DNA of 53,581 nucleotides from Nitrospiraceae bacterium (GTDB lineage: Bacteria > Nitrospirota > Nitrospiria > Nitrospirales > Nitrospiraceae), in the NCBI GenBank assembly GCA_919902505.1, contig CAKKRE010000029.1:1-53581 (forward strand). The letters are read 5' to 3'. Below, piece by piece: positions 31,471-37,881 of this stretch (within the stretch, counting starts at the first letter, position 1; the number at the start of each line of letters is the position of its first letter). The translations under genes were made by a program, and so were the position numbers. The notes below the pieces were generated by a model. It worked only from the letters and a program-made list of their open reading frames with translations. It did not search any database and had not been told where the DNA came from.

Positions 31471-33663
31471 CTACACCAGGAGGAGGCCGGCTTCGCGGAT
31501 CGACTGCCAGGCGGCGCTCCTGCTGAATCGATCGAATCCGCGCGCGCCGACGTCCGGAAAGCGATCGCGCACGTCGGCGAGGCGGGGGTAGTCGTGATTT
31601 CTCCGGCGGGGCGAAGGCGTGGATTCGTGCAGGAAGTGGAGCAACCATTCGGTGTGCGGGGACGCCAGGCTGATCGTAAAATCTTCTGTGCGTGTCGGGA
31701 GAATGACCCTGGTGCGTGTATGTCCGGTTGCCGCGACCACCGGCCTGCCGCCGATCCAGACGCAACGTCGTTCGGCAGTCAGTGGCACGGCAGAGGAAGC
31801 CGCCAGCGCCTGCGTGAGCCAGGTCTTCGTCACCCGTGGCGGTTTGACCCGATGTGAGAACCAGCGTTGTGTTGGGATATCGAAGCCGGCCTGCTCCATG
31901 TAGTTGAGTAACGCGACGCGCAGGCCTTCGCCGAGCCAGGGCGGGCAGGTCGCGTTGGGGTCGGCGTGGCGGAGATCGTTTTCGGCAAACTCTTCGAAGG
32001 TCGGGCCGAGGATCGTGATGCCTTCCGCAGCCGGGTTGAGCCCGATGGGACTGTGGGCGGTGGCCGTAAATTTGTGCCAGAAGGCGGACTGCAGGAGATG
32101 GTTCGCAAACAGTTGCCGCACACGTTCCAGTGAATCGACCGTGTCGGCGATGGTCTCACCGGGACACCCGTACATGAGATAGGCATGCACCAGGATGCCG
32201 GCCCGGCGAAATGCCGCCGCAACCCGCGCCGTTTGGTCTACCGTAATCCCTTTCTTCATCCGTTCCAGCAAGCGATCGGACGCGGCTTCGAGCCCGGCGG
32301 TCAGGGCGATGCAGCCGGATGCCGCCAGCAGTCGTGCTAAATCGGGGGAGAACGCCTCCTCGAATCGAATGTTCCCCCACCAGGAAATGGTCAGGCCGGT
32401 TTCGAGCAGGCGCAGGGCCAGGGCTTTGAGCGCGGCCGGCGGTGCGGCTTCATCGACGAAATGGAAGCCCCGTTGCCCGGTTTCTTGAATCAACGCCTCG
32501 ATCTGGTCGATCAGGACGTCGGTCGGCGTCATCTCATAGCGCGAGATATAGTTCAGCCCGACATCGCAAAACGTGCATTGCTTCCAATAACAGCCGTGCG
32601 CAACGGTCAACTTGTTCCAATGGCCTTCCGACCAGAGCCGGTGCATGGGGTTCAGACTATCGAGGATCGAGAGGTAGTCGGTGAGCGGGAGTCCGGCATA
32701 GGTCGGTCGGCCGAGCTCATGCATCGGAATATCCGGTTCATTGCTGCCGTCTCGAAATATGACGCGGCCGTCTCTGCAGAGAAACGTCCGCCGGAGCAGG
32801 GGCTCGGGCTTCCCGCCTGCCAGGTGTTCCAGGAGGCAGAGGAAGGGGCGTTCTCCGTCATCGAGCGTCACATAATCTACGTACTGGAACAGTCGTGGGT
32901 CTTCGAGTCGTCTCAGCTCGGTGTTCACATATCCGCCACCCAGGACGATGACGGTAGGTGGTGATTGTGCCTTGATCGCCTGTGCAATCCTCAACGCACC
33001 GAACAGGTTGCCGGGAAAGGGAATTGTGAGGCCCACGACATCGGGCGTGGTTCGCTGGAGATGCGGCCAGAGCGCCTCAAGCAGCAATTCATCTGTGAGG
33101 CTCAGTGGTTGAGCCAGGGCGTCCTCGATCCGGTCGAATGACGAGGTGGCCTGCATAATCTGTTCGGCGTAACGATTCAGAAAGAGGTGGGGAGCGACGG
33201 TGCTGTGGAGGAGGTCCGTGAGGTCCTCAATGTACAGTGTGGCGCGGTGCCGGGCGGTGTCTGACGGCGAAGATGCGTGCGATCCTTCTCCGGGCCGACG
33301 ATGAGAGGCAAAACGGGGGCCCTCCGGGAGGAATCCCGGGCGGGCGAGGTGGGGGGCCAACATCGGGTCCTTCCCCTGAAGAAACGCGATCACCGGCTCG
33401 ATTGTCTGAAGATAGGCTGTTTCCAACGCCAGGATTTGTTGGATTTCGCCTCGCCACGGCCGGTCCGTCTGCTTGATCCGGGTGAAAGCCTGCTCCAGTC
33501 CCGACCGCGAGAAGAGGCGCAGCACCATTTCGAGGCCGAGGTCGGCTTGCGCAGCCTCATATCCCCGTGAATGGAGGAAACCTGTCAGGTAGGCGGTCGC
33601 GGGATAGGGCGTATTGAGTTGGGTCAGCGGGGGAATGACAAGGAGGACGCGTGGCTTGGCCAT
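31471..33663 (-). CDS. B12-binding radical SAM protein
   Basis: A 730-residue enzyme. The N-terminal third (PRVLLVIPPLTQLNTPYPATAYLTGFL to VIVLGGGYVNTEL) is a cobalamin-binding-type domain. The radical SAM barrel follows with C358, C363 and C366 in HGCYWKQCTFCDVGLNY. The first pair is four residues apart instead of the canonical three. Further barrel strands include GFHFVDEAAPP, ITAGLEAAS-like LTAGLEAASDRLLERM and AYLMYGCPGE. Such enzymes usually methylate or rearrange unactivated carbons; the substrate is unknown. It stands alone, flanked by repeats. Confidence 0.85.
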   Translation of the reverse strand: MAKPRVLLVIPPLTQLNTPYPATAYLTGFLHSRGYEAAQADLGLEMVLRLFSRSGLEQAFTRIKQTDRPWRGEIQQILALETAYLQTIEPVIAFLQGKDPMLAPHLARPGFLPEGPRFASHRRPGEGSHASSPSDTARHRATLYIEDLTDLLHSTVAPHLFLNRYAEQIMQATSSFDRIEDALAQPLSLTDELLLEALWPHLQRTTPDVVGLTIPFPGNLFGALRIAQAIKAQSPPTVIVLGGGYVNTELRRLEDPRLFQYVDYVTLDDGERPFLCLLEHLAGGKPEPLLRRTFLCRDGRVIFRDGSNEPDIPMHELGRPTYAGLPLTDYLSILDSLNPMHRLWSEGHWNKLTVAHGCYWKQCTFCDVGLNYISRYEMTPTDVLIDQIEALIQETGQRGFHFVDEAAPPAALKALALRLLETGLTISWWGNIRFEEAFSPDLARLLAASGCIALTAGLEAASDRLLERMKKGITVDQTARVAAAFRRAGILVHAYLMYGCPGETIADTVDSLERVRQLFANHLLQSAFWHKFTATAHSPIGLNPAAEGITILGPTFEEFAENDLRHADPNATCPPWLGEGLRVALLNYMEQAGFDIPTQRWFSHRVKPPRVTKTWLTQALAASSAVPLTAERRCVWIGGRPVVAATGHTRTRVILPTRTEDFTISLASPHTEWLLHFLHESTPSPRRRNHDYPRLADVRDRFPDVGARGFDRFSRSAAWQSIREAGLLLV

Positions 33664-33836: not shown

Positions 33837-35183
33837 CTAGGCTGCGCGCATGGACGATTGGATAAAGTATCCGGTCCATCGTTTGATGCGAAAGTACTCG
33901 ACCACATTCCCTGGCAACTCGTCACGCGGCATGGCCCGAAGAATGCTGAGTTCCGACTCTGTTTGGAGATCTACGGTGCGGGGCTGGTCGGCCGGGGCGG
34001 CCTGGTCGTGCAGCAGGACGAGAGGCTTGAGACGGTATTTGAAATTGATATTGAGCACCTGCCCGAAAGAGCCGTCGGTCAGCGTCACGATAGTTCCGGG
34101 CGGAAACACGCCCAGCGTTTGGATCATCGCGATCAGGACTTCCGACGAAAAGAGTCGCTGTTGATGCTTGTACATCGTCGCCAACGCTTCCGCCGGGGAA
34201 AGGGCGTCTTCAGGATGAACGCTATTGACGAGTGCGTCGTAGTGGTCCACGGCGCTCACGATTCTGGTGGGGAGCGAGATTTGGTCTCCCTTGAGTTTCT
34301 CGGGGTAGCCGGACCCGTCCAGCCGTTCATGGTGGCTGCGGATGACGTCCAGCACTTCCTCGGGAAAACCGGGGAATCGTCTGAGCATCTCCACGCCAAG
34401 GTAGGGATGCATCTGATATGTCACATTCTCGACTTCTGAACGGCGGGCACGGGTCTGCAAGATGTGACGCGGAATGCGCTGTTCCCCCACGTCGAGGAGC
34501 AGTCCGGCCATGCCGATCAATTGGAGCGCCTCCTGATCGATGTCGAATTGCTGTGCCACGATCATGGACAGCGTCGCCACATTGAGGGCATGAAGGGTGC
34601 TGGAATTGGCGATATCTTCCTGGTCGAAGGCGCTTGCGACCGTGCCGGCGGCTTCTGTGTTGGTCAGGAGCGTGCTGAGTCCGCCGATCATGGACTGCGC
34701 GTGCCGCAATCCCTCCTCTGAGCCGCCCGTGAGGTGTTGCATCATTTGCGAACTCTGATCGAGCATCTGACGATAGGCGGTGGAGGCGAGTGCTACTGCC
34801 TGGTGGTAGTCGCCATGGGTGGGCTGCTCTTCTTCGGCCGGGGTCGGAGCCTCTGGTTCGACGATGGCTTCGGCTACGCTGGTCTGCGCAGTCGTTTCCG
34901 AAACGCCGGTCGAAGGTGGAGGCGGCAGGATAACGTTGCCCTCTTCATCCGTCTCCGGGTCCGATTCTCGCGGATAGACCAACACGGTGGCCAATCCGAG
35001 TCCTTTGATTGTCGTGATCTGGTTTTGGGAGGTGAGTTTGAACGACCGGCGCGGGAAGGGATGCTTGAACCAGGAGCAATTCAGGTCGACGTACATGCCC
35101 AGGCGGAGATGCTCCGGACGGAGCACCAACGTATCGGACGTGTCGAGTTGAGATATCTCGTCTGAGGTTCGAAGCAGCGCCAT
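33837..35183 (-). CDS. DUF3391 + degenerate HD-GYP protein
   Basis: A 448-residue protein. Residues about 15-75 form a DUF3391 domain (LRPEHLRLGMYVDLNCSWF, then FKLTSQNQITTIKGLG). After a Pro/Glu-rich linker comes an HD-GYP domain (about 190-400). The HD pair is lost: the position of MHDIGK reads LLLDVGEQ (His to Leu230, Lys to Glu234). The GYP part HHERLDGSGYPEKLKGD and DHYDA are kept. Phosphodiesterase activity is therefore doubtful; c-di-GMP sensing is possible. Cytoplasmic. Confidence 0.85.
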   Translation of the reverse strand: MALLRTSDEISQLDTSDTLVLRPEHLRLGMYVDLNCSWFKHPFPRRSFKLTSQNQITTIKGLGLATVLVYPRESDPETDEEGNVILPPPPSTGVSETTAQTSVAEAIVEPEAPTPAEEEQPTHGDYHQAVALASTAYRQMLDQSSQMMQHLTGGSEEGLRHAQSMIGGLSTLLTNTEAAGTVASAFDQEDIANSSTLHALNVATLSMIVAQQFDIDQEALQLIGMAGLLLDVGEQRIPRHILQTRARRSEVENVTYQMHPYLGVEMLRRFPGFPEEVLDVIRSHHERLDGSGYPEKLKGDQISLPTRIVSAVDHYDALVNSVHPEDALSPAEALATMYKHQQRLFSSEVLIAMIQTLGVFPPGTIVTLTDGSFGQVLNINFKYRLKPLVLLHDQAAPADQPRTVDLQTESELSILRAMPRDELPGNVVEYFRIKRWTGYFIQSSMRAA

Positions 35184-35582: not shown

Positions 35583-36758
35583 TCAGGGGGATGCGGATGT
35601 CTCTGCTTCGACAAGACGAAGAAAATCCAAACAGGCAGAGCGGATGTGTGTCGGCTCTCGTCGTAGGTCGCTGCCAAGAATAAAGACGAGGTCTGAACCG
35701 TAGAGGGTGACCATCTCGCGAATGCGCGACGCGGTCATTCGTCCTGCGGCGGTCGGGAGGATGGGTGGGCAGCCGCCGAGCGTTCGTCGGCACGCCGTGG
35801 CAATCTGACGACAATCCTGTTCCGATATCGGATAGTTCAGGCCATAGGTTGGGTAGATGGTGATATCGGCGCCGGCTAGCCTCGGGAGAAGACCGAAGAG
35901 AACCGCAGGAGCGATGCCGCTGTCCGACGTCACATAGTGGCTCCCGAGAAAGTCCGGATGCGCGATGAGGGGCAGCGACAATGAGGACGGCTGAGCCAGG
36001 GAAGCCAAGGCGTCAAAGCCTGTCAGGCCGGGACAGAGCAGGAGTGCGCCCGCGCCCGCCTGCGTTGCCTTGGCGGCCTGTTCCGTGAGAGAGGGCCAAG
36101 GGCCGGAAACATGCGGCGCATAGAGACACCGTTTTCCGGTCTGGCGCGAGGCCTTGGCGACGGCTTCGGCGCAACGTGCGACCCGCTCTTCGAATCGACA
36201 GAAGGGGTGATCGCGCAGACTCTGGTCGTCCTTGATCAGATCAACCTCACCCAGGGCAAATTCGTGGGCCAGTTCAGCCAGCTGCTGCGGAGAATACCCG
36301 AGCGGCTTCAGCACCGCGCAGATTAACGGACGTCGGGGTACCCGCAGCAGGTCGCGGAGGCCCCGCGAGCCGAATCGAGGCCCCGTCAATTGGGAGACGA
36401 CCGCATCGGGCAATGAGAGGTCCGTCACGCGGATGTGTCCTTGCAGGCCGGCCATGCCGATGATCATGTGAAGGAGCGCGCTCATGGTCCCGTCGAGGAG
36501 TTCAACGGGGAAACTGACCACTGCGCGGTGAGATTCGGGGGTGAGCGCCTCGAGCTGACTCACTCGGCCCAGAAGCTGATCCCGAATCGGTCCGGAGGGA
36601 ATGACATGATCGGCGGCTTCAACGGTCTGGTCGATACAGAGCAGGTCTGCCCGCCTGCGTGCATCGGCGGCCGAACCGTGGAGACGATACTCCACTGAAA
36701 AGCGCTCTCCTGAAAACTGGAGGCCGGTACTCCGGCCTGAACTGTTCGGCATGTCCAT
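35583..36758 (-). CDS. RuBisCO-like protein (form IV type)
   Basis: A 391-residue RuBisCO large-subunit homologue, shorter than the usual 410-470. Landmarks: VLKPLG (K151, equal to K175 of plant RuBisCO) and EVDLIKDDQ with K176, D178 and Q179 at the positions of K201, D203 and E204. Thus the Glu metal ligand is Gln. There is no loop-6 Lys, and the Arg after the H267 equivalent is Pro. It cannot be a carboxylase. Form IV proteins act in sulfur or methionine-salvage-type enolase or isomerase steps; the role here is open. An ATG two codons later (36752) fits AAGAAGAG better. No salvage genes are adjacent. Confidence 0.9.
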   Translation of the reverse strand: MDMPNSSGRSTGLQFSGERFSVEYRLHGSAADARRRADLLCIDQTVEAADHVIPSGPIRDQLLGRVSQLEALTPESHRAVVSFPVELLDGTMSALLHMIIGMAGLQGHIRVTDLSLPDAVVSQLTGPRFGSRGLRDLLRVPRRPLICAVLKPLGYSPQQLAELAHEFALGEVDLIKDDQSLRDHPFCRFEERVARCAEAVAKASRQTGKRCLYAPHVSGPWPSLTEQAAKATQAGAGALLLCPGLTGFDALASLAQPSSLSLPLIAHPDFLGSHYVTSDSGIAPAVLFGLLPRLAGADITIYPTYGLNYPISEQDCRQIATACRRTLGGCPPILPTAAGRMTASRIREMVTLYGSDLVFILGSDLRREPTHIRSACLDFLRLVEAETSASP

Positions 36759-37068: not shown

Positions 37069-37881
37069 ATGATGGTGCCGGATCAACAAGACAATCAGTC
37101 GATGATGCGAGTTGCGGTTTCGAGCTGGTTGGTCCTGGTAATGGTGTTGGGTTGCTGGAGTGACGCCGGGGCTGCGCAACGGTTCGTGGACCTGACCTAC
37201 ACGTTCGATGAGACCACTCAAGTCTGGCCTGCCAATCCTCCCTTTCATCGTGACTCGACTGAACGGGGAGGTACGCCGACGGAAAAATGGTATGCCACAG
37301 GGCAGGTGGCGCTGTCCGAGCATGCCGGAACGCACATGGATGCGCCCGTTCATTTTGCGCAGGGGCAAGCGGGGATCGATGGCATTCCGGTCGACCGCCT
37401 GGTCGGTCCTGCGGTGGTCATCGATGTGCGCGTTGCGGTGGCCGAGGATCGCGACTATCGCGTCTCCTTGTCGGATATTCATCGGTGGGAGTCTGCGCAC
37501 AGGACGATTCCAGCGGGAGCGATCGTGATGCTGCTGACGGGCTGGGGTGTGTACTGGACGGATCGTGAACGGTATTTCGGCAGCGCCACGCCGGATGTGC
37601 CGACGACGCTGCATTTTCCGGGATTCTCACAAGAAGTCGCGGAGTTTCTGGTGGCGGAACGACACATCTCCGGAATCGGAATCGATACAGCCAGCATCGA
37701 TTATGGTCCCTCGCAGGATTTTGTGGTGCACCGGATTGTGAACGGAGCCGGCCTCTATGGACTCGAGAATGTGGCGCGACTGGATGAGGTGCCGGCCTCG
37801 GGTGCCACGGTCATGGCTCTCCCGATGAAAATTGCCGGTGGGACAGGGGCTCCGGTTCGTATCATCGCGATTCTGCCCTAA
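37069..37881 (+). CDS. cyclase/kynurenine-formamidase-family lipoprotein
   Basis: A 270-residue protein of the metal-dependent cyclase family. HAGTHMDAPVHF carries the metal ligands H85, H89, D91 and H95; IGIDTASIDYG is also typical. An N-terminal hydrophobic stretch ends in VLGC (C29), a lipobox, so it is probably a lipid-anchored or periplasmic enzyme, unlike most family members, which are cytoplasmic. TTGGAG lies before the ATG. The substrate, an amide or lactone, is not known. It is followed by a hairpin repeat and the DsbA-like gene. Confidence 0.85.
   Translation: MMVPDQQDNQSMMRVAVSSWLVLVMVLGCWSDAGAAQRFVDLTYTFDETTQVWPANPPFHRDSTERGGTPTEKWYATGQVALSEHAGTHMDAPVHFAQGQAGIDGIPVDRLVGPAVVIDVRVAVAEDRDYRVSLSDIHRWESAHRTIPAGAIVMLLTGWGVYWTDRERYFGSATPDVPTTLHFPGFSQEVAEFLVAERHISGIGIDTASIDYGPSQDFVVHRIVNGAGLYGLENVARLDEVPASGATVMALPMKIAGGTGAPVRIIAILP

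Follow-up and report, generated by a model that had tools for sequence, protein, structure and literature searches.

The closest described relatives of the protein analyzed here are the DeepYkr RuBisCO-like proteins (RLPs). Rhodopseudomonas palustris has two RLPs, one of which, RLP1, is a DeepYkr protein with proven 5-methylthioribulose-1-phosphate (MTRu-1-P) 1,3-isomerase activity (kcat about 1 per s) in the MTA-isoprenoid shunt, and by locus numbers a cupin gene lies directly downstream of the RLP1 gene (PMC5893883). The RuBisCO fold is shared by two further systems, MtnW, the 2,3-diketo-5-methylthiopentyl-1-phosphate enolase of the YkrW clade, and OiaX, the 3-oxo-isoapionate-4-phosphate decarboxylase, a form IV relative. 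In RuBisCO itself, E60, N123 and K334 come together around the reacting carbon, and the P1 phosphate is held by the backbone amides of G381, G403 and G404.

We analyzed a window of 53,581 nucleotides (the whole stretch of DNA under study) from a Nitrospiraceae genome, hereafter the source genome, in which the sole RuBisCO-family match is the following gene:

35583..36758, minus strand, RuBisCO-like protein (RLP) gene, 391 aa, Nitrospiraceae 'Q-type' subclade of form IV DeepYkr

The open reading frame is intact (391 codons plus stop) and its product is matched above cut-off by the Pfam RuBisCO_large model (E 5.5e-21). The initial annotation had described the protein as shorter than usual; 391 residues are ordinary for its clade (about 370–400 aa). 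The predicted fold is intact, the AlphaFold2 model being confident over the full length (mean pLDDT 92, pTM 0.91). Its best match in the PDB is 3qfw, an RLP from R. palustris (Z 47.2, rmsd 1.6 Å over 351 residues), which is also the best PDB match by sequence (186 bits); because rlp2 is 2qyg, we take 3qfw to be R. palustris RLP1. In model searches no curated NCBIfam model claimed the Nitrospira RLP: the mtnW model scored 141.9 of 513.6 bits, far under cut-off, and the curated OiaX model 86.9 of 700 bits.

A scan of 84,980 genomes retrieved 77 related loci from many phyla, and order-wide and phylum-wide searches together with plasmid records supplied the remainder. Placement in a tree of form IV proteins had been proposed in the initial annotation as a check, and in an IQ-TREE phylogeny of 91 proteins (support as bootstrap/SH-aLRT) all of the retrieved proteins, with the Nitrospira RLP and 3qfw, fall within the DeepYkr clade (100/100), separate from MtnW; by descent the protein is a form IV DeepYkr RLP. 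Within this clade a transketolase-linked branch (98/98) contains the Nitrospiraceae group, whose Gln-bearing members form a nested clade (100/99), distinct from the clade of cupin-linked isomerases (100/99). L203, an RLP from another Nitrospiraceae genus, is sister to the Gln clade (100/97). The nearest relatives are the transketolase-linked RLPs of Chromatiaceae, Chloroflexota, Myxococcota and Rhizobium plasmids, at about 38–46% identity, and at 22 loci of this branch, all from other phyla, a split DXS/transketolase pair lies upstream of the RLP gene. Rhizobium/Pararhizobium plasmids carry an apparent operon of the order mtnK-mtnA-DXS_N-TKT_C-RLP (L149, 2686–8110; L150, 2688–8119), an arrangement that has the look of a salvage branch for MTA or 5'-deoxyadenosine, dependent on thiamine diphosphate and replacing the cupin. 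The literature searched yielded no paper on an RLP with a split DXS/transketolase pair. Genomes of a further Nitrospirota family (f16; L115–L130) each carry about three RuBisCO-family genes, one type of which has a KSDE metal-site motif and a long branch of its own.

Equivalence to spinach RuBisCO numbering, checked against true RuBisCO rows within the alignment, pairs K151 with K175, K176 with K201, D178 with D203, Q179 with E204, H267 with H294, P268 with R295 and N308 with K334. The codons of most interest are:

36306..36308, minus strand, codon 151 AAG (Lys), equivalent of the general base Lys175, invariant
36231..36233, minus strand, codon 176 AAG (Lys), equivalent of the carbamylated Lys201, invariant
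36222..36224, minus strand, codon 179 CAG (Gln), metal-ligand position Glu204 of RuBisCO, His in other DeepYkr proteins
35835..35837, minus strand, codon 308 AAC (Asn), loop-6 Lys334 position, Arg in 98% of other DeepYkr rows
35739..35741, minus strand, codon 340 CGA (Arg), Gly381 position, Arg in 24/24 of the clade, Gly in 65/66 other rows
35670..35672, minus strand, codon 363 AGC (Ser), Gly404 position, Ser in 23/24 of the clade

The residues that the initial annotation had listed (K151, K176, D178, Q179, Pro after the conserved His and a loop 6 without Lys) are all borne out, and what is unusual about them proved to be different. Gln179 had been read as a replacement of Glu. The Gln is real; the Glu baseline was wrong, since position 179 is His in all 60 transketolase-branch and all 12 cupin-branch proteins, which places the loss of Glu before the change from His to Gln in Nitrospiraceae. 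Likewise, the Pro after the conserved His and the missing loop-6 Lys are true observations that single out nothing: position 268 is Pro in every DeepYkr row and in three of the four MtnW rows, and loop 6 of DeepYkr proteins has Arg, not Lys, the absence of Lys being ordinary for MtnW as well. Loss of that DeepYkr Arg is not ordinary, and in the Nitrospiraceae Gln clade position 308 is never Arg or Lys.

The DeepYkr residue pattern itself is present, with Lys175, Lys201, Asp203 and His294 kept and Arg295 replaced by Pro, whereas the bona fide RuBisCO (forms I–III) set of Glu204, Arg295, His327, Lys334 and the phosphate-site residues is not found. Judged from its residues, the Nitrospira RLP cannot be CO2-fixing, as the equivalents of K177, R295, H327 and K334 are absent. 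MtnW shares with it the fold, both Lys, the Asp, the His and mostly the Pro after the His, but lies in a separate clade and keeps Glu at the metal site; OiaX, also in a separate clade, keeps the equivalents of Glu204, Arg295 and Lys334. With 3qfw the Nitrospira RLP has in common the fold, the base Lys, the carbamate Lys, the Asp, the His, the Pro after the His and membership of DeepYkr. However, it has none of His179, Arg308, Gly340, Gly363, Asn102 and Glu43 of 3qfw, and lacks the set common to 3qfw and its cupin-linked relatives (His at E204, Arg at K334, the P1 glycines, Glu60 and Asn123). The transketolase-linked RLPs, unlike the Nitrospira RLP, also keep His179, Arg308, Gly340 and Gly363.

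When the Nitrospiraceae Gln group (24 rows) was compared with 62 other DeepYkr proteins, 10 of the 65 positions constant in the latter were found to be changed in the former. Six of these ten are equivalents of the RuBisCO active-site residues E60, N123, E204, K334, G381 and G404 (Fisher p 0.005 for active-site enrichment, in a test that treats positions as independent), and the remaining four, 307, 309, 337 and 360, are near active-site positions in sequence. In the Gln group, E60 is mostly Asp, N123 has become Met, Ile or Thr (no Asn102), E204 is Gln, the K334 position is variable and without the DeepYkr Arg, G381 is Arg in 24/24 and G404 is Ser in 23/24; in addition, His has taken the place of Asn216, where a barrel strand ends, in 24/24. 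By contrast K151, K176, D178 and H267 are kept in 100% of rows, and the new residues Q179, R340 and S363 are as constant as the ancestral ones. On this comparison the real peculiarity of the protein is the coordinated replacement at the E60, N123, E204, K334, G381 and G404 positions, which the initial annotation had largely missed. The sister protein L203 (5821–6996, minus strand; G187) has Ser179 and Thr102, yet keeps Arg308, Gly340, Gly363 and Asn216, an intermediate state suggesting an order in which the metal site and N123 changed before the phosphate site. Gln179 also occurs, with the other changes missing, in two proteins from other phyla (L095, 677–1696; L101, 1575–2606), one of which also lacks Asn102; on the 91-protein tree their Gln is of independent origin, and to our knowledge neither has been characterised. 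A known form IV clade that works with Gln at the metal site was not found.

Among 60 relatives searched, the RLP gene was found in 25 of 28 other Nitrospira genomes as well as in two other Nitrospiraceae genera, and was absent from three Nitrospira genomes (G010, G011 and G016), which shows that it is dispensable. Two public records, labelled Candidatus Parvibacillus calidus (L043) and Nitrosospira (L045), contain Nitrospira RLP loci with Nitrospira gene order and are probably mislabelled or mis-binned. Whether close homologues keep the Gln had been left as a check, and they do: Gln179 is invariant in an alignment of 27 Nitrospiraceae homologues (the others being 46–95% identical to the RLP of the source genome) and is found in N. 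defluvii, whose chromosome FP929003 is complete (L031); this rules out the sequencing error at codon 179 that the initial annotation had allowed for. Against five orthologues the RLP gene has a dN/dS of 0.13–0.21, close to the values of enzymes encoded nearby, the putative cyclase and the HD-GYP protein among them. G011 and G016 retain both flanking genes (HD-GYP and radical SAM) and have lost the RLP gene; together with the low dN/dS this indicates that loss occurs, yet intact copies are under selection. No paper on the Nitrospira RLP was found in the literature searched.

The genomic context of the RLP gene comprises, on its downstream side, two genes on the same strand:

33837..35183, minus strand, HD-GYP-type protein (DUF3391 + HD), between the RLP and radical SAM genes
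31471..33663, minus strand, B12-binding radical SAM protein, downstream of and on the same strand as the RLP gene, an association only

Gene-neighbourhood comparison gave no evidence of functional coupling between the HD-GYP-type protein and the RLP. The B12 radical SAM gene keeps its place near the RLP gene in several Nitrospiraceae genera with differing upstream flanks; no curated NCBIfam model claims its product above cut-off (best TIGR03975, 94 of 282 bits). An argument from operon structure was set aside: apart from the HD-GYP gene, the radical SAM gene is the one same-strand neighbour that recurs, and it persists in genomes that have lost the RLP. A putative cyclase gene (PF04199, arylformamidase-like; 37069–37881, plus strand) is divergent from the RLP gene and is kept there in some Nitrospira only.

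It is confirmed that no methionine-salvage gene adjoins the RLP gene. This is weak evidence, since mtnP and mtnA are elsewhere in the source genome (contigs C16 and C56), and both occur in almost every Nitrospira genome searched, whether or not it has the RLP. Directly downstream of the close relatives of 3qfw there is a cupin gene, whereas none is found at the Nitrospira RLP; a single-protein query for the partner cupin methylsulfurylase, which may overlook a very distant cupin, gave no match in the source genome and only weak cupins in relatives. An RLP-type transketolase subunit was not found in the source genome either, the best candidates having 31–37% identity compared with 54–76% among the RLP-linked ones, and both of the gene partnerships of related RLPs are therefore apparently unavailable here. 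Most Nitrospira have a class II aldolase with a weak mtnB score (57.5 of 137 bits). It was rejected as a downstream enzyme on account of these weak mtnB-like scores, its presence in RLP-less Nitrospira and its apparently split state in the source genome. The gene (L229, 4465–5033; C22:38464–39032 of the source genome) lies in two frames here and is intact in most other Nitrospira, and the split may reflect a frameshift or an assembly error.

The reading that we prefer, at about even probability, is that the Nitrospira RLP is a functional RuBisCO-fold enzyme of DeepYkr descent, re-tooled in a Nitrospiraceae ancestor for another substrate. Coordinated replacement has removed one half-site, made up of loop 6, the contacts from the N-domain (E60, N123) and the glycines at the P1 phosphate (G381, G404); with the base, carbamate and metal half kept and a new invariant Arg in the phosphate corner, this is how an enolising enzyme that had changed its substrate would look. 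In such an enzyme K176 would be carbamylated and, together with D178 and perhaps Gln179, would coordinate a divalent metal, K151 would take the proton next to the carbonyl to give an enediolate, and Arg340, new in this clade, would take over from glycine backbone amides in holding the anionic end of the substrate. MTRu-1-P in the old pose is thus probably not the substrate, which may bear a carboxylate or have its phosphate at a different place; the sulfur-salvage reaction known from the nearest characterised cousins is probably no longer carried out. A bolder version, which is possible if less than probable, is that this Nitrospiraceae enzyme, with a neutral Gln by the carbamate/Asp metal site and an Arg for the P1 grip, enolises or isomerises a substrate other than a 1-phosphorylated ketose, a reaction that would be new to the RuBisCO superfamily and found in nitrite oxidisers. 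Against a switch of substrate, Arg340 could be another way of gripping the same phosphate, and the gene context points to no substrate; the dispensability of the gene in three Nitrospira also counts against the preferred reading; against turnover, the coordinated rebuilding around kept core residues could serve ligand binding.

In another reading, which we consider unlikely, the ancestral 1,3-isomerisation, on 5-methylthioribulose-1-phosphate or 5-deoxyribulose-1-phosphate, is retained and Arg340 replaces the glycine phosphate grip. In a variant of it, MtnP and MtnA would make 5-deoxyribulose-1-phosphate from the 5'-deoxyadenosine of radical SAM enzymes, and the RLP would convert it directly to 1-deoxyxylulose-5-phosphate with no need of a cupin. 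The wide occurrence of mtnP and mtnA, the same-strand B12 radical SAM gene downstream in several genera and the mtnK-mtnA operons of related RLPs are consistent with such a role, but mtnP and mtnA are equally present in RLP-less relatives, the radical SAM gene outlasts the RLP, neither cupin nor RLP-type transketolase was found in the source genome, and E60, N123, K334 (as Arg) and both P1 glycines, strictly kept in other DeepYkr proteins, are changed here. A non-catalytic pseudo-enzyme, keeping the DeepYkr dimer fold and surface for a structural, binding or regulatory role, seems to us rather doubtful. It would fit a metal site that no longer has its charged or imidazole ligand, the loss of several residues for ligand binding, the patchy loss of the gene in some Nitrospira and the lack of metabolic gene context, whereas drift would then be expected at the catalysis-specific K151, K176, D178 and H267, which are invariant, and Q179, R340 and S363 are just as constant. 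Of the two outcomes that the initial annotation had offered, loss of all activity is accordingly the less likely, the base, carbamate Lys, Asp and His being fully kept under purifying selection, and a distinct, non-carboxylating protein is supported. That the locus is an artefact, whether through a misread codon 179 or as a pseudogene in decay, has a negligible probability given the same Gln in separate assemblies, the low dN/dS and the confident full-length fold.

Nitrospira are major nitrite oxidisers that fix CO2 by the reductive TCA cycle and are not known to do so with RuBisCO, yet most genomes examined keep the RLP under purifying selection. On present sequence comparisons it would best be filed as a new active-site variant of DeepYkr RLPs. 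The Nitrospira genes are neither RuBisCO nor MtnW, a warning for annotation, and should be counted neither towards carbon fixation nor towards proven methionine salvage. In a superfamily with few assigned reactions, the strictly conserved, rebuilt active site and the L203 intermediate offer a tractable case of a scaffold changing its substrate.
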